A DNA stretch of 60,941 nt from Salipaludibacillus daqingensis. Its GTDB lineage: Bacteria > Bacillota > Bacilli > Bacillales > Salisediminibacteriaceae. Shown here in pieces: positions 51,934 to 60,941 of the stretch. The translations under genes were made by a program, and so were the position numbers. The stretch covers positions 1 through 60,941 of the forward strand of contig NZ_JARZHF010000014.1 in the NCBI RefSeq assembly GCF_029891575.1. Direction: 5' to 3'. Under the pieces are notes generated by a model. It saw only the letters and a list, made by a program, of their open reading frames with translations, did no database searches and was not told where the DNA came from. Every line of letters starts with the position of its first letter. Position 1 is the first letter of the stretch.

Positions 51934-52781
51934 CATACACCTATATGAAAAACACACCATTTGAAACAAATGCTATCGATAAATTGGATTTGATGATTCC
52001 TGGTGAGCAGTTCACATCGATTATCGGTCACACAGGTTCAGGGAAATCAACGTTGGTCCAGCATTTCAATGGCCTATTAAAACCGACAGATGGATCGATA
52101 AAAATTGGTGAATGGACCGTCAAAAGTGATACGAAACAAAAGCTCCTTTATCCTTTGCGTCGTCATGTAGGAATGGTTTTTCAGTTTCCGGAACACCAGC
52201 TTTTTCATGAAACGATTTTAGCAGACGTGGCTTATGGACCGATGAACTTTGGTTTTTCCAAGGAAGAGGCAGAGAAGGTAGCGAAGGAATGTTTAGCCAA
52301 TGTAGGTATTGATGACCAGCTATTTGACCGATCTCCTTTTGATGTGAGTGGAGGACAGATGAGACGTGTCGCTATTGCTGGTGTTCTTGCATTAGATCCT
52401 GAACTTCTCATTCTAGACGAGCCCACAGCTGGTCTAGATCCAGAAGGACAAGAAATGATGATGAAGCTCTTTCATGATTGGTATGAAGAAAGAGAAGAAC
52501 GATCGATCATTCTCGTCACACATCAGATGGAAGATGCTGCACGCTATTCTGATGAGGTCATCGTAATGGATGGGGGAAATGTGATTGATAGAGGAACCCC
52601 AAGGCAGATTTTTGCAAAGAAAGCCGAACTAGAAAAGATTGGTTTAACTGTTCCTGAATCTGTTCAACTACTTGAAGCGCTTCAAGCTCATTCAGAAAGT
52701 GAACTTAATACCTCTGCATTTACATTGGAAGATACGGTCGAAAGCATCTTATCTTTTCTGCACAAGAAGGGGCGTGACTAG
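51909..52781 (+). CDS. ecfA2: EcfA2, second ATPase of the ECF transporter
   Basis: EcfA2 (290 residues) pairs with EcfA1. It has Walker A GHTGSGKST (about 39-47), Q-loop FQFPEHQLF, signature VSGGQMRR and Walker B LLILDEPTAGLDPEGQ. The signature M in place of the usual K or Q is the normal form for this subunit. The ATG lies within the ecfA1 end, and ecfT begins two bases after the stop. Confidence 0.95.
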   Translation: MQIKANHLTYTYMKNTPFETNAIDKLDLMIPGEQFTSIIGHTGSGKSTLVQHFNGLLKPTDGSIKIGEWTVKSDTKQKLLYPLRRHVGMVFQFPEHQLFHETILADVAYGPMNFGFSKEEAEKVAKECLANVGIDDQLFDRSPFDVSGGQMRRVAIAGVLALDPELLILDEPTAGLDPEGQEMMMKLFHDWYEEREERSIILVTHQMEDAARYSDEVIVMDGGNVIDRGTPRQIFAKKAELEKIGLTVPESVQLLEALQAHSESELNTSAFTLEDTVESILSFLHKKGRD

Positions 52782-52783
52782 TC

Positions 52784-53587
52784 GTGTTTGATAACGTGAT
52801 TATAGGTCAATACGTCCCGAGGAACTCTCTCGTTCACAAGATCGATCCAAGAGCGAAACTGCTAGCTATTCTGCTATTTATTATCTTTTTATTCATAAGT
52901 CGCCATCCCGTCGTTTTATCATTGGCTATTGTCATCACAGGCACAACATTTATTCTTGCAAAAATACCGTTTCGCTACTACATAAAAGGGATGAGATTCA
53001 TTGCTATCTTAATCTTTTTTACTTTCTTATTACACCTTTTTATGACAAGAGAAGGAACGGTTATTGTGGACTGGCCTTGGTTGACCGTATATTCGGGAGG
53101 CGTAGTCGAAGGAAGTTTGATTGCTCTTAGGTTATTTTTGTTAGTGCTAATGGCCTCGCTTCTTACGCTAACGACCACACCTATCGATTTAACTGACGGC
53201 ATGGAAAGACTAATGAAACCATTGAAAAGGATCCGTGTTCCTACGCATGAATTAGCTTTAATGATGTCGATTGCCTTAAGGTTCATTCCAACCCTTTTAG
53301 GGGAGACGTCAAAAATCGTGAAAGCGCAAATGGCACGCGGAGCGAATTTTTCAGAAGGTTCGTTATGGAAGCGATTGAAATCGTTAATTCCAATTTTGAT
53401 CCCATTGTTTGTTCAATCATTTAAGCGAGCAGAAGATTTAGCGATAGCCATGGAAGCAAGAGGATACGGTGGAGGAGAAGGTCGGACGAAGTTCAGACAG
53501 TTAAGGTGGAAAAGAAACGACTCCATTGCAATTGGGGTATTCGTCATGTTTGCCTTGCTAACGATTGTATTTGGATTTATCGAATAA
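52784..53587 (+). CDS. ecfT: EcfT, transmembrane subunit of the ECF transporter
   Basis: EcfT (267 residues) connects the ATPases to interchangeable S components. It has about five membrane segments (25-60 as a pair, 72-88, 109-128, 247-265) and a long cytosolic coupling region with the ARG signatures MARGANF and MEARGYGG, which contact the ATPases. GTG at 52784 follows AAGGGGCG by twelve bases. truA follows after 15 bases. Confidence 0.94.
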   Translation: MFDNVIIGQYVPRNSLVHKIDPRAKLLAILLFIIFLFISRHPVVLSLAIVITGTTFILAKIPFRYYIKGMRFIAILIFFTFLLHLFMTREGTVIVDWPWLTVYSGGVVEGSLIALRLFLLVLMASLLTLTTTPIDLTDGMERLMKPLKRIRVPTHELALMMSIALRFIPTLLGETSKIVKAQMARGANFSEGSLWKRLKSLIPILIPLFVQSFKRAEDLAIAMEARGYGGGEGRTKFRQLRWKRNDSIAIGVFVMFALLTIVFGFIE

Positions 53588-53602
53588 AGGGAGAGAGAAC
53601 CT

Positions 53603-54379
53603 ATGCCAAGAGTATTAGCGACTTTGTCTTATGACGGAGCCCAGTTTCATGGCTACCAACGACAGTCAAATGATCGTTCTGTGCAAGGGGAACTAGAACG
53701 AGCGTTACGAAAAATTCATAAAGCAGATTCGTGGCGGTCCACTTCTTCAGGAAGAACCGACGCGGGAGTCCATGGTATGCGTCAACCCGTGCACTTCGAT
53801 ACACCTTTATCGATCTCAGAAGAACGATGGCCAATGGCATTAAACAGTGTGTTACCTGATGATATTCACGTCTTGCGCTGTGAGTTTGTCTCAGAGTCGT
53901 TTCACGCCCGTTATGATGCTATTGGGAAGGAATACGTCTACCATGTCAACACGTCGATACAAAGGAACGTGTTCAAGCGTCATTATGTCCACCATTTACC
54001 GAAAAAGTTAGAGTTAGATTCCATGCAGAAAGCCGCTTCCAATTTAGTTGGTACTCATAATTTCACTAGTTTTTCGTCTCCGAAAACGGATGTCGTCGAT
54101 AAAGTACGCACGATTTATATGATTGACATTGTCCAAAATGGACAAGACTGGACGTTTCGGTTTATTGGCAGCGGTTTTTTATATCAAATGGTTCGCGTTT
54201 TAGTAGGGACCCTTCTTGAAGTTGGACTTAGGGAACGACAGCCTAGTGAAATAGAAGAGATCTTACAAGGACAAGACCGAACTCTTGCAGGGAAAACAGC
54301 CCCGGCATGCGGATTATATTTATCTCAAGTTTTTTACGAACAACAAGAATTAGAAGCTTATCTAAAAAAATTGCAATAA
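53603..54379 (+). CDS. truA: tRNA pseudouridine synthase A
   Basis: TruA (258 residues) forms pseudouridine at tRNA positions 38-40. The catalytic aspartate is Asp53 in SSGRTDAGVHG (48-58), and YDGAQFHGYQRQ near the start and GSGFLYQMVR near residue 193 are family signatures. GGGAGAGAG precedes the ATG. It ends just before the rplM promoter, as in B. subtilis. Confidence 0.96.
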   Translation: MPRVLATLSYDGAQFHGYQRQSNDRSVQGELERALRKIHKADSWRSTSSGRTDAGVHGMRQPVHFDTPLSISEERWPMALNSVLPDDIHVLRCEFVSESFHARYDAIGKEYVYHVNTSIQRNVFKRHYVHHLPKKLELDSMQKAASNLVGTHNFTSFSSPKTDVVDKVRTIYMIDIVQNGQDWTFRFIGSGFLYQMVRVLVGTLLEVGLRERQPSEIEEILQGQDRTLAGKTAPACGLYLSQVFYEQQELEAYLKKLQ

Positions 54380-54404
54380 CAACGCATTCGGGTGTAACAT
54401 TTTG

Positions 54405-54433
54405 TTGACAGTGACCTTCAGATATTATATGAT
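54405..54433 (+). promoter_or_regulatory. SigA promoter for rplM-rpsI
   Basis: TTGACA (54405-54410), 17 bp, TATGAT (54428-54433). Confidence 0.88.
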
Positions 54434-54439
54434 GGTCTA

Positions 54440-54520
54440 TGGTATTCTTATGCCCACTAGCCCCGGGTACGGAATAGACTAGTTGAAATGTAGGAAATTC
54501 ATTGGATAGTTTTTATTAGG
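54440..54520 (+). promoter_or_regulatory. Ribosomal protein L13 leader
   Basis: The short leader contains the segments GCCCACTAGCCCCGGGTACG and GGAATAGACTAG, with ACTAG (54456-54460) pairing with CTAGT (54479-54483). This fits the L13 leader known upstream of rplM in Bacillales, where L13 is thought to repress its own operon. Confidence 0.7.
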
Positions 54521-54532
54521 AGGGAAACACAA

Positions 54533-54970
54533 ATGCGTACGACATATATGGCAAAACCAAGTGAAATTGAACGCAAATGGTTCGTAGTCGACGCAGAAGG
54601 TAAAACACTCGGTCGTCTTTCGACTGAAGTAGCTAGCCTTCTTCGCGGAAAGCACAAACCAACATTTACACCACACATGGATACAGGTGACCACGTGATC
54701 ATCATCAATGCAGAGAAAATCCACTTAACTGGAAACAAGTTAGCGGATAAGATGTACTATCGTCACAGCCAATACCCAGGTTCATTGAAAGCAACATCTG
54801 CTGGTGAAATGCGTGACCGAAAGCCAGTAAAATTACTTGAGCTTTCTATTAAAGGAATGTTGCCTAAAGGACCTTTAGGTAGCCAAATGTACCGAAAGCT
54901 AAATGTGTATGCTGGTAATGAGCACCCACATGAAGCACAAAAGCCAGAAGTATACGAATTACGCGGTTAA
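54533..54970 (+). CDS. rplM: Ribosomal protein L13
   Basis: L13 (145 residues) is an early 50S assembly protein. It begins [20 protein letters not shown] and has [20 protein letters not shown] (about 28-47) and the KMLPKGPLG-like segment (here GMLPKGPLG). TAGGAGGG precedes the ATG. The leader upstream is likely its own binding site. rpsI follows after 20 bases. Confidence 0.97.
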
Positions 54971-54990
54971 TATAGAAGGAGGGAATTTTC

Positions 54991-55383
54991 TTGGCACAAG
55001 TTCAATATTATGGAACAGGTCGTCGTAAAAACTCCGTTGCACGTGTACGTCTAGTACCTGGAGACGGCAAAATCGTGATCAACAACAGAGACATCAACGA
55101 ATACTTTGACCTTGAAACATTAAAAGTTATTGTTAAGCAACCACTAGTTGAAACACAAACAGAAGGCACTTATGACGTGCTTGTAAACGTAGATGGTGGA
55201 GGATACACAGGACAAGCTGGAGCAATCCGTCATGGTGTTGCTCGCGCTCTTCTTATTGCGGATCCAGAATTCCGTGATTCACTTAAGAAAGCAGGATACT
55301 TGACTCGTGACTCTCGTGCGAAAGAGCGTAAGAAATACGGTCTTAAAGGCGCACGTCGTGCACCTCAGTTCTCGAAGCGTTAA
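54991..55383 (+). CDS. rpsI: Ribosomal protein S9
   Basis: S9 (130 residues) lies in the 30S head, and its C-terminal tail reaches P-site tRNA. It begins [20 protein letters not shown] and ends APQFSKR with the conserved terminal arginine. The TTG start is preceded by AGAAGGAGGG. A strong terminator follows. Confidence 0.97.
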
Positions 55384-55406
55384 TATCCCTTATATACCAA
55401 GGGTTC

Positions 55407-55445
55407 AGCCCTCTTTGCTCATGTCGAGCAAGGAGGGTTTTTTCG
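55407..55445 (+). terminator. rplM-rpsI terminator
   Basis: CCCTCTTTGCTC (55409-55420) pairs with GAGCAAGGAGGG (55426-55437), followed by six T. Confidence 0.93.
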
Positions 55446-55536
55446 TGGTTTGAGAGAAGTGGCTAAAAATAAGAGTCAACAGGGGTTTATATGAATCTAT
55501 TTAACAATGTTATTATAAGGGAAAATGTCCAAATTA

Positions 55537-55594
55537 TTTACAAATTCAGAATTTTTGCTACAATGAAATGGGAATAACATTTAAGCGCTTACAA
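55537..55594 (+). promoter_or_regulatory. cstA promoter with downstream cre (CcpA) site
   Basis: TTTACA (55537-55542), 16 bp, TACAAT (55559-55564) with an extended TGC before the -10. ATTTAAGCGCTTACA (55579-55593) matches the cre consensus WTGNAANCGNWNNCW with one mismatch and lies about 10-25 bases after the start, a typical place for CcpA repression. A second TATAAT (55595-55600) has no good -35. Confidence 0.7.
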
Positions 55595-55657
55595 TATAAT
55601 TTTTGCAGGGAGGGAACTGAGACAAACAAAAAAGAGAATAGAGGGAGGTAGGAGTAA

Positions 55658-57391
55658 ATGTCAGCTATATTGGTCGCCATATTAGGTCTAGTAATATTTG
55701 CTTTAGGCTATCGTTTTTATTCGAAATTTATTGCTGAAAGGATTTTCCGTCTGGATCCTGATTACGTGACACCAGCTCACAAGTACAAAGATGGCGTCGA
55801 CTTTGTACCGACAAACAAATTTGTATTATGGGGTCACCACTTTACTTCTGTAGCAGGTGCTGCACCAATATTAGGGCCTGCAATAGCTGTTTATTGGGGA
55901 TGGCTTCCGGCTGTTCTATGGGTCGTATTTGGTACGGTTTTTGCTGCTGGTGTTCACGACTTTGGAACGCTTGTTATTTCTGTCCGGAACAAAGGTCAGT
56001 CAATAGGTACATTAGCGAACAAGCTCATTGGTCAACGTGGAAAGATTTTATTTTTATTTATTATTCTCATTCTAGTTTTGATGGTGAATGCCGTTTTTGC
56101 ATGGGTGATTGCGAACTTATTCATAACATATCCAGCTAGTGTCCTACCGGTATTTATTCAAATTCCATTAGCAATATGGATTGGATACGCCGTTTACAAA
56201 CGAAATATTAAGATGCTTGTCCCTTCGTTAATTGCGTTGGCAGTAATGTATGCAACGGCGATTTTTTCTGCGCAAAATGAATTTTTGCAAATTGACTTAG
56301 TTCGATATATGGGTGGGGAGGAAGCGGCAGGTCTATTTGGACTTGGTGCTGTAGCGACTGCTTTCTTCATATGGATTGCTATTTTACTAGCCTATGTCTA
56401 TGTGGCATCAACCCTTCCTGTATGGAAACTACTTCAACCGCGAGATTTCATTAACTCGCATCAACTAGTTGTCGGGTTAGGAATTCTTTATTTAGGATTG
56501 TTTTTGACAAATCCACAGATCACGGCACCAGCAACGAATCCTGGAGCGGATACGTCCTGGCTACCGTTATTGTTTATTACGATTGCTTGTGGTGCCATCT
56601 CAGGGTTTCACGGGCTTGTATCGTCAGGAACAACGTCGAAGCAATTAAATAAAGAAACAGATGCACGTTTTGTCGGTTATTTTGGAGCTGTCGGGGAAGG
56701 GGTTCTAGCCTTAGTATCCATTCTCGCTGTTGTCACATTATTCTCCAATGCCGATGAGTTTTTAGGTGCATATGGAAGTTTTGCAGAGGCAAATGCCATT
56801 GGACTAGGAAACTTTGTAGAAGGTGCAGCAGGCCTTGCGCAAGGCTTATTCATTCCTCAAGGAGTGGCTACAACAATCGTATCGATTATTGTTGTCAGTT
56901 TTGCTGCAACGACGCTTGATACAGCCGTTCGTCTGATGCGTTATATTATTTCTGAACTAGGTACAGAGTATAAAATTCCAGCGCTTACGAAAACACATGT
57001 AGCAACGACGGTTGCAGTAGGTTCTACGGCAGCGCTTGTTCTGATTCCAGAAGGACCACAAGGATTTGGCTCAGGAGGTTACTTACTATGGCCGCTGTTT
57101 GGTACGTCTAATCAGCTATTAGCAGGGATAAGTTTATTACTGATCTCTTTATGGCTCAAGCGATTAGGTAGAAACTATATTTATACGTTCATACCGATGA
57201 TCTTCTTGTTATTTATGACGATGTATGCCCTTTTCCAACAGGTCACTTTTACGTGGTCATGGTGGGGAACAAATTCAAATATGCTTCTATTTGTATTTGG
57301 TGCGATAAACTTTGTCTTTGCTTTATGGATTTCGATTACAGCATTTTCTGCCATGCGAGGGAAGTTTGATAATCAGATTGACAAGGATTAA
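55658..57391 (+). CDS. cstA: CstA-family carbon starvation transporter
   Basis: This 577-residue integral membrane protein belongs to the CstA/BtsT family, which imports pyruvate and, by older reports, peptides. About fifteen hydrophobic segments are seen; family signatures include LWGHHFTSVAGAAPILGPA (about 58-76), GVHDFGTLVIS and SGFHGLVSSGTTSKQL (about 319-334). It is shorter than E. coli CstA (about 700). AGAGGGAGGT lies upstream of the ATG. The cre site implies glucose repression. A terminator-like hairpin and two further genes of a possible cassette follow. Confidence 0.93.
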   Translation: MSAILVAILGLVIFALGYRFYSKFIAERIFRLDPDYVTPAHKYKDGVDFVPTNKFVLWGHHFTSVAGAAPILGPAIAVYWGWLPAVLWVVFGTVFAAGVHDFGTLVISVRNKGQSIGTLANKLIGQRGKILFLFIILILVLMVNAVFAWVIANLFITYPASVLPVFIQIPLAIWIGYAVYKRNIKMLVPSLIALAVMYATAIFSAQNEFLQIDLVRYMGGEEAAGLFGLGAVATAFFIWIAILLAYVYVASTLPVWKLLQPRDFINSHQLVVGLGILYLGLFLTNPQITAPATNPGADTSWLPLLFITIACGAISGFHGLVSSGTTSKQLNKETDARFVGYFGAVGEGVLALVSILAVVTLFSNADEFLGAYGSFAEANAIGLGNFVEGAAGLAQGLFIPQGVATTIVSIIVVSFAATTLDTAVRLMRYIISELGTEYKIPALTKTHVATTVAVGSTAALVLIPEGPQGFGSGGYLLWPLFGTSNQLLAGISLLLISLWLKRLGRNYIYTFIPMIFLLFMTMYALFQQVTFTWSWWGTNSNMLLFVFGAINFVFALWISITAFSAMRGKFDNQIDKD

Positions 57392-57404
57392 ACTAGAAGG
57401 AACC

Positions 57405-57440
57405 AAAGGGGAGGTCACAGTTGGCCTCTTCTTTTCCTTT
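57405..57440 (+). terminator. terminator-like hairpin after cstA
   Basis: AAAGGGGAGG (57405-57414) pairs with CCTCTTCTTT (57425-57434) with G-U pairs, followed by a pyrimidine-rich tail. It would reduce but perhaps not abolish readthrough into the CC-tail gene. Confidence 0.6.
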
Positions 57441-57459
57441 CTGAAAGGAGGAGTGATTA

Positions 57460-57717
57460 GTGTTAGATAGTGTGAAAAAGCTGATTAAATACTATGAAGA
57501 AGTTATTAGCCTCAATCATAAACAGGAAATTGCAAGAGAACTAAGAGACGAGGATGATCTATTTTTATTGATGCTTTATTCAGAAATGCTGGGAATTCCT
57601 AACCCTGTATACTACTATACACTTGAGCTTTATCCACATATGATTGAAGAATTTCATGACTGGCACTTACGAATGGGCATGGACAAATCACCATTAACAG
57701 GAATTCGCTGCTGCTAA
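57460..57717 (+). CDS. Small protein with C-terminal Cys-Cys (cory-CC-star type)
   Basis: This 85-residue soluble, mostly helical protein ends in IRCC followed by two stop codons. The middle segment LMLYSEMLGIPNPVYYYTLE (about 36-55) and the acidic stretch LRDEDD (28-33) are notable; no membrane helix or signal peptide is seen. I recognise it as the family named cory-CC-star from its final CC. It lies between cstA and an ArsA/GET3-type ATPase. E. coli CstA and BtsT are each followed by a small protein (YbdD or YjiX) that also ends in CC. GTG at 57460 is preceded by AAAGGAGGAG. Function is unknown. Confidence 0.75.
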   Translation: MLDSVKKLIKYYEEVISLNHKQEIARELRDEDDLFLLMLYSEMLGIPNPVYYYTLELYPHMIEEFHDWHLRMGMDKSPLTGIRCC

Positions 57718-57741
57718 TGATAGGAAGAGGGTGTTTGCCAG

Positions 57742-58668
57742 ATGGAAGTATTGGATAAAAAGATCATTTTTGTTGGAGGGAAAGGTGGGGTCGGTAAATC
57801 CACCTCAGCTGCAGGAATTGCTTGGCGTGCGGCTGAAAAAGGTTATAAAACACTGCTTATTTCCACTGATCCTGCCCACAATTTAGGGGATATCTTTGAT
57901 CAGTCGATTGGTGGAAAAACGACAAAAGTGAGCGATTATCTTTCTGCGCTAGAAATTGACCCAGATATCGAAACGGAAAAGTACATTGATAGTGTGAAAG
58001 AAAATATGAAAGGAACCGTCCATTCAGGTATGATGGAAGAAGTCCATCGACAGCTTGATACGGCAAAGGCTTCCCCAGGAGCGGATGAAGCGGCTTTATT
58101 TGATAAACTAATTTCGATCATTTTAGAAGAAAGCGAACATTTTGATAAGCTCGTTTTTGATACAGCACCAACAGGGCACACGATTCGACTACTCACTCTC
58201 CCTGAACTCATGGGTGTTTGGATTGAAGGGCTGTTAAAAAAACGCAAAAAAACGAAAGAAAACTATAGCCAACTTTTAAATGATGGGGAACCAATCGAGG
58301 ATCCGATTTACGATGTCCTTCGGGAACGACAGGAACGATTTTCGAAGGCGAGAAAGATTCTACTAGATGGAAATATAACAGGCTTTATTTTTGTATTAAA
58401 CCCAGAACGTTTACCTATTCTAGAAACGAAAAAAGCCCTTGAGCTACTAGACAACTATCACCTTCACGTGAAAACATTGATTGTGAACAAAGTGCTGCCG
58501 GAAAATGCTGATGGAACGTTTTTGCAGGAACTGAAGGAAAATGAGAAGGGGTATTTATCACAAATAAAGCAAACGTTTAAGGACCAGGAGATTGTCTATA
58601 TTCCATTGTTTTCGCATGATATTTCAAGCAAAGAAGAATTAATGGAGTTTAGTAAATATTATAGCTGA
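57742..58668 (+). CDS. ArsA/GET3-family P-loop ATPase
   Basis: The 308-residue protein has a deviant Walker A GGKGGVGKST (12-21), switch I DPAHNLGD (about 43-50) and switch II DTAPTGHTIRLL (about 140-151), all typical of the ArsA/GET3 class. Only one ATPase domain is present, so it is GET3-like and not a tandem ArsA. There is no arsB or arsR nearby, which makes arsenic export unlikely. It starts 24 bases after the CC-tail gene, so the two are probably co-expressed. Membrane-protein targeting or cofactor handling is possible but unproven. Confidence 0.85.
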   Translation: MEVLDKKIIFVGGKGGVGKSTSAAGIAWRAAEKGYKTLLISTDPAHNLGDIFDQSIGGKTTKVSDYLSALEIDPDIETEKYIDSVKENMKGTVHSGMMEEVHRQLDTAKASPGADEAALFDKLISIILEESEHFDKLVFDTAPTGHTIRLLTLPELMGVWIEGLLKKRKKTKENYSQLLNDGEPIEDPIYDVLRERQERFSKARKILLDGNITGFIFVLNPERLPILETKKALELLDNYHLHVKTLIVNKVLPENADGTFLQELKENEKGYLSQIKQTFKDQEIVYIPLFSHDISSKEELMEFSKYYS

Positions 58669-58843
58669 TTGGTTCGGAAAAATAATAGACAGATGCTAGA
58701 TTTTTTCATATGGATGGAATGAATATAGTGATGGTTACTGCACTCCGGATTATTCTTGAGTGTTTAGTGTTGAACGAGATAAAATTATCATAAGTATATA
58801 GTACATAAAACTCTCAACTTTCAGTCATACGTTTGACGTTTAT

Positions 58844-58880
58844 TAAATACCCCTTGGCAACAATGCCAAGGGGTATTTTC
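58844..58880. terminator. bidirectional terminator
   Basis: AATACCCCTTGGCA (58846-58859) pairs perfectly with TGCCAAGGGGTATT (58864-58877) around ACAA, with T on the right and A on the left. It separates the ATPase gene from the convergent small gene on the minus strand. From 58669 to 58843 I see nothing else. Confidence 0.88.
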
Positions 58881-58951
58881 GTTCTGCGTACACCACCCAA
58901 GTATTACACAGTGCTTAAAGGAGTGTGTAGACCTTTTTCTGAACGATTTTA

Positions 58952-59203
58952 TTACTCTTCGTCATCATTACCATTATTACTAGCAGTTCCTAGTGCACCT
59001 AGAATGCCAGTCAGAAGACCTAATAGTTGTTGAACTTCGTCATCCGTTAATGTTTGAGGGGATGTTAATCTTACACACGGTAACTCAAGTTGAAGTTCAA
59101 TTCCTAAAGCGACGATATCTATTGGACATGGGATGCCAATACATAGAATTTCATCACCAGTGCAACAGCTATCAGGACAACTATTATTATTGTTATTACC
59201 CAT
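58952..59203 (-). CDS. Small Cys-rich protein, possibly spore-associated
   Basis: This 83-residue protein has a polar N-terminus with five consecutive Asn (3-7), six cysteines (9, 13, 14, 21, 26, 43), a hydrophobic mid-section, a leucine/glycine-rich stretch LLGLLTGILGALG (about 60-72) and an acidic tail. The start is secured by AAAGGAGGT nine bases upstream of ATG. I do not recognise the family. The composition resembles small Bacillus coat or exosporium proteins, and the gene is divergent from a YheC/YheD protein. A bidirectional terminator lies 70 bases beyond its stop. Confidence 0.7.
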   Translation of the reverse strand: MGNNNNNSCPDSCCTGDEILCIGIPCPIDIVALGIELQLELPCVRLTSPQTLTDDEVQQLLGLLTGILGALGTASNNGNDDEE

Positions 59204-59236
59204 CTTTATCTACCTCCTTTCGGTTGAGCTAATCTC

Positions 59237-59357
59237 ATTTATATGATCACGTTCTATCAGTGATTGTTTTATAACCTATTTATTTGTTTGATTCTATAAA
59301 AAAGGGTGAAAGTAATAGGTTTCCTAACTATATCGAGTGGTTGATAGAACATATATT
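59237..59357. promoter_or_regulatory. divergent candidate sporulation promoters
   Basis: On the plus strand CATATATT (59350-59357) is close to a SigE -10 (CATACANT) and to SigK CATANNNTA, with an ATAT-containing -35 region (59330-59333) about 15 bp upstream. On the minus strand CATATAAAT (59245 down to 59237) is a similar -10 for the Cys-rich gene. No vegetative promoter is obvious on either side. Confidence 0.4.
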
Positions 59358-59434
59358 ATATAAAGTCGGAAATTTATATTTTTTACCAATTATTTCATTC
59401 ATTCATGAAGAGTTTTTGTAAAGGTGGTATTTGA

Positions 59435-60565
59435 ATGTATGTAGATATTAATCCGTCTCAAGGAAGTTTGGAAGAGAAAGTGGATCAGAATTCGTTCGTA
59501 ATTGGAGTATTGGCAGCAAAATCAAGAAGAAGGTTAAAGAAGTCCCTCCATGAATTGAGACATTTAGGAGACGGATATAAAAATGTTCGTATCATTGCTT
59601 TTTATCTTATTGGAATAGATCGAGAAAAACGACTAGTGGAAGGGTATATATATGATCCTTTTGAAAAGGGTTGGAGACCATCAATACTTCCAATACCCTA
59701 CGCAGTCATCAACCGTATCGGTTTAACAACGGACTGGCAAATCTTCTTTAGAAAAACTTTAGGAAGTAGAATGATCAATAATTTCACTTTTAATAAATGG
59801 GAAATGTACAAGTGGCTTTCCATTCATTCTGGATTAAACAGACACTTACCAAAAACTCATCTTATAACATCTCCACAAGACATCGTTGACTTCTTAGATG
59901 AATGGAAAGAAGCCTATATAAAACCGGTTAGTGGAAGTTATGGCAAAGGGATTTTTAAAGTTACTAAACAAGGAGAAAATTTCAAAGTAGTCACTAGTCG
60001 GCAAAAAAAAGAGAAGCATACGTTATTTTTTAATAAAGAAGAGTTGGTAAATTACTTTAAAAAGCGATGTAAAAAGAAGGGATATCTTGTTCAGCAAGTG
60101 ATTAATCTATATGTTCGGGATATTCCGATCGATTTCAGGGTCATTATGGTAAAAGACAATTTAGAAGAATGGAACAATCTAGGGATGATTGCTCGAAAAG
60201 GTAGAAAAGAAGGAATTGTAAGTAACACAGGTCTAGTAAAAAGAGGCAATCCATCCTTGCAAAACCTACTTTCCATGTCAAAGTATGAAGCTATCCAATT
60301 AAGACAAGAGATGAGCGATCTTTCTTTTGAAGCGGTCCACCACATGGAAAAATTCGGTGGGACGTTTGGGAATTTAGGGAATGTTGGGTTTGATTTGGCC
60401 ATAGATAGAAACCGTAATCTTTGGATTATTGAAATCAATCATCGGAATCCAAGGCATCTCATGGCAGTAGATGCTGGCGATGATCACATCTTCGTCAATG
60501 CTAATAAATTAATAATGGATTATGCCGTCCATTTAGCTAAATCTAAGATCTTGAAACGGGATTAG
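59435..60565 (+). CDS. YheC/YheD-family ATP-grasp protein
   Basis: The 376-residue protein belongs to the YheC/YheD endospore-coat-associated ATP-grasp family. An N-terminal region (1-120) precedes the ATP-grasp core: YIKPVSGSYGKGIFKV (about 165-180) is the nucleotide-binding lysine/glycine loop, DFRVIMVKD (about 233-241) and the metal-binding IIEINHRNPRHL (about 333-344) complete it. Such enzymes ligate a carboxylate to an amine or thiol; the substrate is unknown. AAAGGTGGT precedes the ATG. The divergent Cys-rich gene and the promoter type point to sporulation. Confidence 0.85.
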   Translation: MYVDINPSQGSLEEKVDQNSFVIGVLAAKSRRRLKKSLHELRHLGDGYKNVRIIAFYLIGIDREKRLVEGYIYDPFEKGWRPSILPIPYAVINRIGLTTDWQIFFRKTLGSRMINNFTFNKWEMYKWLSIHSGLNRHLPKTHLITSPQDIVDFLDEWKEAYIKPVSGSYGKGIFKVTKQGENFKVVTSRQKKEKHTLFFNKEELVNYFKKRCKKKGYLVQQVINLYVRDIPIDFRVIMVKDNLEEWNNLGMIARKGRKEGIVSNTGLVKRGNPSLQNLLSMSKYEAIQLRQEMSDLSFEAVHHMEKFGGTFGNLGNVGFDLAIDRNRNLWIIEINHRNPRHLMAVDAGDDHIFVNANKLIMDYAVHLAKSKILKRD

Positions 60566-60749
60566 CTTAATGATTAACAATAAAAAAGGTCAAACTCCTC
60601 CTCTATCATTAAAGCCAAGAGGACTCCTTCCTCAAAAATTCGATAGAAATTTAGGTGGGAGGTGAATTGGCGGTTTTGGTACTAGAATTTTTATAATTTT
60701 TTAGGTAATATAAACGTATTAGAACTTATGTTTGGGGGGTGAAAATCAA
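60566..60749 (+). other. region upstream of tnpB, possible IS left end
   Basis: CCTCT (60600-60604) pairs with AGAGG (60618-60622), and AAATT with AATTT near 60638-60653. These are weak hairpins of the kind found at IS200/IS605 ends, but no boundary or target motif can be fixed. No TnpA gene is present in this gap. Confidence 0.35.
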
Positions 60750-60941
60750 ATGGCAAACTACAAAACCATGCAAATTTGTGTCAAAAAAGGACACCGAATG
60801 CACGAATATTTTCAAGAGATGTGCCAACGTGCAAAGAACATGCATAACACAACCAACTTTTATATCCGACAAGTTTATACGTCTTTAACACAAGAAAAGG
60901 AGTTGCAACCTCTTCAAAGCGAAGTGTTGGATTCCATTCAA
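60750..60941 (+). CDS. tnpB: TnpB-type IS200/IS605 OrfB protein, N-terminal part (cut by window end)
   Basis: The first 64 codons of an open frame that runs off the window. GGGGGGTG precedes the ATG. Segments KKGHRM (12-17), CQRAKNMHNTTNFYIRQVYT (about 25-44) and LTQEKELQPLQSEV are typical of TnpB proteins of IS200/IS605-type elements, which are RNA-guided nucleases. The RuvC-like domain and zinc finger would lie outside the window, so intactness cannot be judged. Confidence 0.8.
   Translation, partial: MANYKTMQICVKKGHRMHEYFQEMCQRAKNMHNTTNFYIRQVYTSLTQEKELQPLQSEVLDSIQ

Follow-up and report, generated by a model that had tools for sequence, protein, structure and literature searches.

Three adjoining genes of Salipaludibacillus daqingensis

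Contig NZ_JARZHF010000014.1 of S. daqingensis (assembly GCF_029891575.1), positions 1 to 60,941, hereafter the window (60,941 nucleotides in all), carries towards its end three genes in one direction, which encode a CstA-family transporter, a small protein of the cory-CC-star family (hereafter cory) and a single-domain ATPase of the ArsA/GET3 family (Table 1). A preliminary description had read these ORFs as CstA, an 85-residue protein ending in Cys-Cys (CC) and a single-domain ATPase, and all three were confirmed; the stretch that it singled out begins at 55537, on the -35-like TTTACA of a promoter-like pair.

CstA and BtsT are well-known carbon-starvation or pyruvate importers. The window transporter is a member of PF02554 (486 bits, cut-off 27) and falls outside the E. 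coli CstA equivalog NF011590 (230 bits, cut-off 1188); no relative of solved structure was found for CstA in the PDB with phmmer at E ≤ 0.01. The small protein ends in GIRCC directly before the stop codon, and these final two residues are its only cysteines. Its match to NF041419 extends to the last profile position and scores above the curated NCBI cut-off, which makes it a member of a small-protein family that NCBI has already named and that is not newly found here. No Pfam match was obtained at E ≤ 0.1, and the best match to a solved structure (glucosamine-6-phosphate deaminase, E 0.007) was taken as noise.

The ATPase matches PF02374 and belongs to TIGR00345 (cut-off 135 bits), a model that covers GET3, ArsA and TRC40 jointly. 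With its one domain, it is not a member of the two-domain ArsA model TIGR04291 (154 bits, cut-off 650). The P-loop GGKGGVGKS and the stretches STDPAHN and DTAPTGHT are intact, and they are kept in the relatives that are linked to a CC-ended protein. Cysteine is absent from the window ATPase and from the ATPases at 62 of 80 loci. The best single-domain matches in the PDB were 3zq6 and 3ug6, which we take to be archaeal Get3 proteins. The CxxC motif of Get3 binds zinc at the dimer interface; in the alignment the window ATPase has GTFL where 3zq6 has CEFC and 3ug6 has CDFC, and it thus lacks the motif. As had been proposed, no arsenic genes were evident among the ORFs read at 52000-60941 (five of them searched against families). 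The two-domain ArsA of the genome sits on a separate contig (G000:C5), and the arsenic loci used as examples (L079 and L080) carry ArsB, unlike the window locus.

Table 1. Features of the cstA region of the window
Feature	Position	Strand	Evidence
Sigma-70-like promoter TTTACA-16-TACAAT, TG before -10	55537..55564	+	Consensus scan, 10/12 matches; consensus match only
cre-like site TTTAAGCGCTTACA	55580..55593	+	One mismatch; 15 bp 3' of the -10-like hexamer
CstA-family transporter, 577 aa	55658..57391	+	PF02554, E 1.9e-145
Hairpin between the CstA and small-protein genes	57405..57434	+	Terminator-like scan
cory-CC-star protein, 85 aa, GTG start	57460..57717	+	NF041419.1, 126.5 bits, cut-off 80
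Single-domain ArsA/GET3-family ATPase, 308 aa, Cys-free	57742..58668	+	TIGR00345, 297 bits

Conservation of the cassette and of its small protein

The cassette was surveyed in 378 Bacilli genomes, at E ≤ 0.001 for cory, at least 52% identity for CstA and E ≤ 1e-45 to the window protein for the ATPase. The same 43 genomes contained all three (45 copies of cory, 45 of the ATPase and 47 of CstA), the remaining 335 contained none, and an ATPase of this type never occurred without the small protein in the 378 genomes. All 45 cory copies had CstA upstream on the same strand, at 48-627 bp, and the ATPase downstream, at 15-304 bp (distances between matches); in G298 the ATPase is broken near a contig end. 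At about 40% CstA identity, six more genomes had CstA and none of them had cory. A wider collection of 84,980 species yielded 229 cory relatives. Among the best 80 of these, which are Bacilli by their titles except one labelled Roseburia, the ATPase lay downstream in all 80 (once as only a 153-aa ORF) and CstA upstream in 79. The trio is also intact on plasmids of Cytobacillus, Pseudochrobactrum and Paracoccus, the latter two of which place the cassette in the Alphaproteobacteria as well; public plasmid records label it as carbon starvation protein A, cory-CC-star protein and ArsA family ATPase. The co-occurrence of CstA, the CC-tail family and a GET3-like ATPase, which the preliminary description had named as a check, is thus far beyond chance. 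The Fisher p value for the linkage in Bacilli (1e-57) is descriptive only, because the counts are phylogenetically non-independent, and the sampled sets overlap in species.

An extra ORF of 94-121 aa lies between CstA and cory in some Bacillaceae (L048:5245-5610, L052:4503-4787 and L168:4687-4974), and these ORFs are mutually similar on reading. A thioredoxin identity for the ORF of L048 (E 0.0046 over 22 residues, below the Pfam cut-off) was judged too weak.

Quick single-gene trees were built, in which some branches are long (L064, L065 and two alphaproteobacterial ATPases among them). The window CstA and the other cory-linked CstA sampled formed one clade (Shimodaira-Hasegawa-like approximate likelihood ratio test, SH-aLRT, 100). 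The ATPase tree separated the CC-linked set from the sampled ATPases that stand alone or in arsenic operons (SH-aLRT 88, which does not reach the starred level), with the exception of the two alphaproteobacterial ATPases, which lay outside the CC-linked group.

The CC end was present at 100 of 100 cory loci, a set with duplicate species, and in 92 of these the final 85 residues contained no further Cys. Within the window the small protein is the only one of 74 picked ORFs that ends in CC. When the loci of at least 8 kb were included, 77 of 1637 picked ORFs did so, namely 73 with the cory-type tail, two relatives ending in DWCC, YbdD and one CMD-family ORF in L080. By these counts the CC end is not a product of chance. 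No cory protein ending in Cys-selenocysteine (Cys-Sec) was found, as no stop codon lay within the match at 18 or at 45 places, all of which reach the last profile position. The body of cory has the conserved motif LG[IL]PxPxxYYxLELxP. The region that varies least among cory and its remote relatives is the central LGxPxPxxYYxLxLLP, with G45, P47, P59 and R71 invariant in 19 sequences; the CC tail is invariant in the CC families only, not across the remote relatives.

These remote relatives include forms without the tail. In seven genomes of five other Firmicutes genera, a CC-less relative is flanked by CstA on one side and by one or two GET3-like ATPases on the other, and further CC-less relatives were seen in G055 and G094; a plasmid search with a CC-less relative as query gave no match. 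The CC-less and DWCC-ended relatives tested score below the NF041419 cut-off, and so does a match in Haloferax volcanii. In the f13 genomes another cory-like gene stands at a distance of 4-5 kb from the CC-less trio (L081:4692-5687 and L085:4721-5329). Its product has the His-rich end EEHAPHIH in place of Cys-Cys, and this tail could be a metal ligand. At L184:7890-8583, two tandem CC-less cory-like genes stand beside two tandem GET3-like ATPase genes and one CstA gene; by their arrangement, small protein and ATPase look as if they had been duplicated together.

A CstA transporter with a CC-tailed partner is already known. In the CstA-YbdD and BtsT-YjiX systems (PF04328; nearest NCBIfam entry KCU-star, NF033934) a CstA-family transporter is likewise followed by a CC-ended small protein, but no ArsA/GET3 gene stands beside DUF466 in the annotated loci read. 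YbdD matches DUF466 and YjiX is annotated as PF04328. Both E. coli proteins end in RCC and, as the preliminary description stated, their sequences differ from that of the window protein, to which they have no detectable homology. Homology between the cory and DUF466 families was rejected, with an hhalign probability of 1-2%, no PF04328 match at E ≤ 0.1 and only a short GIPN/GIPD-like stretch in common. DUF466 was found in 46 of 151 Bacilli genomes, in all 46 no more than 1.5 kb downstream of a CstA-family match (a fragment in two cases), and three of 47 CstA matches of at least 800 bits lacked DUF466 within 1.5 kb. In E. coli, pyruvate uptake is reported to drop to 13% after deletion of cstA and to 20% after deletion of ybdD (PMC5847655). 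Some DUF466 members of Campylobacterales are reported to end in Cys-Sec, and redox activity has been suggested for them (PMC4607533); they appear as KCU-star in a 2026 review (PMC13188914).

In E. coli, btsT-yjiX is followed by yjiA, which encodes a CobW/ZigA-related P-loop GTPase (L086:2910-6280). This layout parallels the cory cassette, except that a G3E-type GTPase gene takes the place of the ATPase. A yjiA gene also lies 3' of yjiX in Rahnella, giving two of seven annotated DUF466 loci, both from one order. A Streptomyces record was left out of this count, as its YjiX is 89.6% identical to that of E. coli and its 10-kb plasmid is contamination-like. No GTPase gene follows DUF466 in the Xanthomonas, Pseudomonas, Paraburkholderia, E. 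coli cstA and Enterobacter cstA loci, and among the 46 DUF466 loci of Bacilli, the 10 that were read showed no same-strand picked ORF with a P-loop pattern within about 1.5 kb on each side. Since it was seen in two of seven annotated loci, both from one order, and in none of the Bacilli loci read, the yjiA parallel stays suggestive.

The CstA proteins linked to DUF466 and those linked to cory fell into separate clades, and a tree in which they were constrained to one clade was rejected (approximately unbiased test, p 2.3e-6, tested after the tree was seen). Given that no homology is detectable between the two small families and that the CstA clades are separate, the CC tail looks convergent in cory and DUF466; alternatively, an old partner may have been replaced in one line. 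The preliminary description had taken the tail for a shared functional requirement of this transporter class. What stands is that a terminal CC is common to two families of CstA neighbours between which no homology was detected. The transporter class as such does not require it, since none of 13 CstA proteins of the 600-722-bit class has DUF466, 11 CstA loci without a partner had no cory, no GET3-like gene and no DUF466 match nearby, CC-less cory relatives exist, and CC-ended pairs occur away from CstA.

Candidate regulatory sites and neighbouring genes

A CcpA-type operator had been proposed at cstA. The cre-like site is present with one mismatch, but in the window alone such matches are not above chance (4 found, 6.18 expected). 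Upstream of homologous CstA genes, a site with no more than one mismatch was present in 35 of 96 regions, and in 7 of these it was exact, compared with 67 of 1920 random 330-nt pieces. These pieces were taken from the same loci, coding DNA included, and some of the 96 loci are near-duplicates. Because of this enrichment, carbon-catabolite control is plausible in part of the CstA family. The 68-nt gap between the CstA and small-protein genes has a folding energy of -23.2 kcal/mol. Among 68 homologous gaps with lengths of 40-160 nt, from loci that include near-duplicates, 54 folded at z < -2 relative to 30 mononucleotide shuffles each. The hairpin in the gap of the window is a possible attenuator or processing site.

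Downstream of the cassette, the minus strand encodes at 58952-59203 an 83-aa Cys-containing protein (MGNNNNNSCPDSCC...), which has no NCBIfam or Pfam match. Its gene adjoins a YheC/D-like ATP-grasp gene (59435-60565, PF14398), and the protein is possibly spore-related. An ORF start on the plus strand (60750-60941, MANYKTMQICVKKGHRMHEYFQEMCQRAKNMHN...) resembles IS200/IS605-type OrfB/TnpB on reading only and is truncated by the window edge.

Possible role of the small protein and the ATPase

The favoured, though tentative, reading is that the small protein and the ATPase form a module that acts on CstA, to which the tail would add a thiol or metal function. A CstA-family carbon-source importer would be made together with this dedicated helper module. 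The cory protein would be an adaptor whose conserved body binds both to CstA, on its cytoplasmic face, and to the partner ATPase. This ATPase, a dimer of the GET3/ArsA type, would cycle between open and closed states with ATP and, via the adaptor, would activate, gate or maintain CstA, as ArsA does with ArsB. The terminal Cys-Cys would be an added thiol element, either a disulfide switch or a metal ligand, and the Cys-Cys or Cys-Sec of the YbdD/YjiX subunits would be its counterpart. An adaptor is suggested by the gene order, which is fixed, by the ATPase type, which in the sampled Bacilli is always accompanied by the small protein, and by the body, which persists without the tail. The intact ATP-site residues, the separate grouping of most CC-linked ATPases and the need of E. 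coli CstA for a DUF466 partner in transport (PMC5847655) also speak for the module. Since CC-less relatives occupy the same slot, the constant part would be the adaptor body and not the tail. Gene content, order, linkage, conservation and, in the cory copies sampled, the invariant tail were observed directly; we infer a physical complex, a dimer, ATP coupling and a role of the thiols, and by analogy with E. coli CstA the substrate would be pyruvate or a peptide.

The preliminary description had offered a thiol or metal ligand among the roles of the tail. The thiol or redox part of that proposal found backing in the Cys-Sec members of DUF466 (PMC4607533) and in the uptake that falls to 20% after ybdD deletion (PMC5847655). 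Because of these Sec-bearing tails and the need for YbdD in pyruvate uptake, a thiol function of the CC tail is likely by analogy.

Several facts weigh against an action of the module on CstA. The cstA-ybdD pair of E. coli has no linked ATPase gene, and two extra CstA copies of the trio clade (57-59% identical) have no adjoining cory or ATPase, the full trio being found elsewhere in the genome. What speaks most strongly against it is that pairs occur without CstA. In four Firmicutes genomes of two genera (G021, G045, G065 and G168) a DWCC-ended relative and an ATPase have no adjoining CstA, and these ATPases fall among the CC-linked ones (support 89). Salinicoccus albus presents a natural split of the cassette, in which glnA is followed by cory and the ATPase (L093:4587-7241), and no CstA-family match was found in its 2.6-Mb draft, the completeness of which is not stated. 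In the tree its ATPase is joined to that of Lentibacillus (SH-aLRT 100) rather than to that of the one further Salinicoccus in the sample, which looks as though the genes for small protein and ATPase had moved jointly.

Such pairs would be expected if the two proteins were an independent thiol or metal module and CstA a frequent operon companion rather than the target. The genes beside the DWCC pairs point the same way, with an ArsR-family regulator gene 3' of the pair in G045 and a gene for a DUF2284 'predicted metal-binding protein' upstream of it in G065 (the upstream ORF of G168 is similar on reading). However, the CstA linkage at 45 of 45 places in the sampled Bacilli and the same order in Alphaproteobacteria and in the CC-less systems speak against this explanation. 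Moreover, a full-length CstA is encoded elsewhere in three of the four DWCC genomes; the fourth has a fragment and, apart from that, just the short type of 480 aa. An independent module is rather unlikely.

An extension of the module acting on CstA is that CstA importers twice recruited unrelated subunits which converged on a terminal dithiol redox switch (Cys-Cys or Cys-Sec), that the cory subunit couples a dedicated GET3-type ATPase to the importer for ATP-dependent, thiol-gated carbon import, and that the enterobacterial BtsT-YjiX-YjiA, with its G3E GTPase, is a third, parallel wiring of a P-loop NTPase to these transporters. Taken as a whole, this scheme is unlikely.

The ATPase might instead act in GET-type targeting, as a chaperone for membrane delivery of CstA or of the small protein, with the CC tail as its tag. 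The ATPase resembles Get3/TRC40 in its single domain and in its matching P-loop and switch stretches, and both its TIGR00345 membership and its best PDB matches agree with this. But the small protein has no hydrophobic C-terminal tail anchor on reading, no tail-anchored client is evident, GTFL replaces the CxxC of 3zq6 and 3ug6, and the ATPase is kept where the small protein has no CC tail. Targeting of this kind is improbable, and the earlier suggestion of a tag handed over by the ATPase was not borne out.

A metal or metalloid pump in the style of ArsD-ArsA-ArsB, in which the CC protein loads the ATPase and CstA exports the metal, is very improbable. That system, too, has a small protein, an ArsA-family ATPase and a membrane transporter in one operon (L080 has ArsD, PF06953, and ArsB), tandem ArsA-like genes also recall it, and ArsD has vicinal Cys pairs. 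However, no ArsD, ArsB or two-domain ArsA was seen at the window locus, and the ATPase is Cys-free there and at 62 of 80 loci and would therefore have no ArsA-like metalloid site. CstA is described as an importer, and the ATPases lie outside the arsenic cluster in the tree. Finally, the CC tails of two small proteins might rebuild the zinc site of Get3 in trans and so hold the ATPase dimer together, which would fit an ATPase without CxxC at the aligned place and a partner with an invariant CC end; because all nine examined ATPases of CC-less systems also lack CxxC, its loss is unlinked to the tail, and this idea is hardly credible.

The name of the cory family is already in use. The preliminary description knew of no mechanism joining the three genes, and in the literature searched, which did not cover most subscription journals, we likewise found no such mechanism, no sign of a paper treating CstA with an ArsA-family ATPase and none using the name cory-CC-star; nor did we find the dedicated ATPase, the forms lacking the CC end or the pairs away from CstA described there. 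PMC5847655 makes no mention of Get3, and the one paper found to contain both YjiA and YjiX announces a genome reduction. The natural versions without a tail, the second and apparently unrelated CC partner and the dedicated ATPase offer contrasts by which the roles of tail, body and ATPase could be told apart. If ATP or redox state does control a symporter through such an adaptor, transporters would be regulated in a way that is new, and an orphan branch of the bacterial GET3/ArsA ATPases would gain a function.

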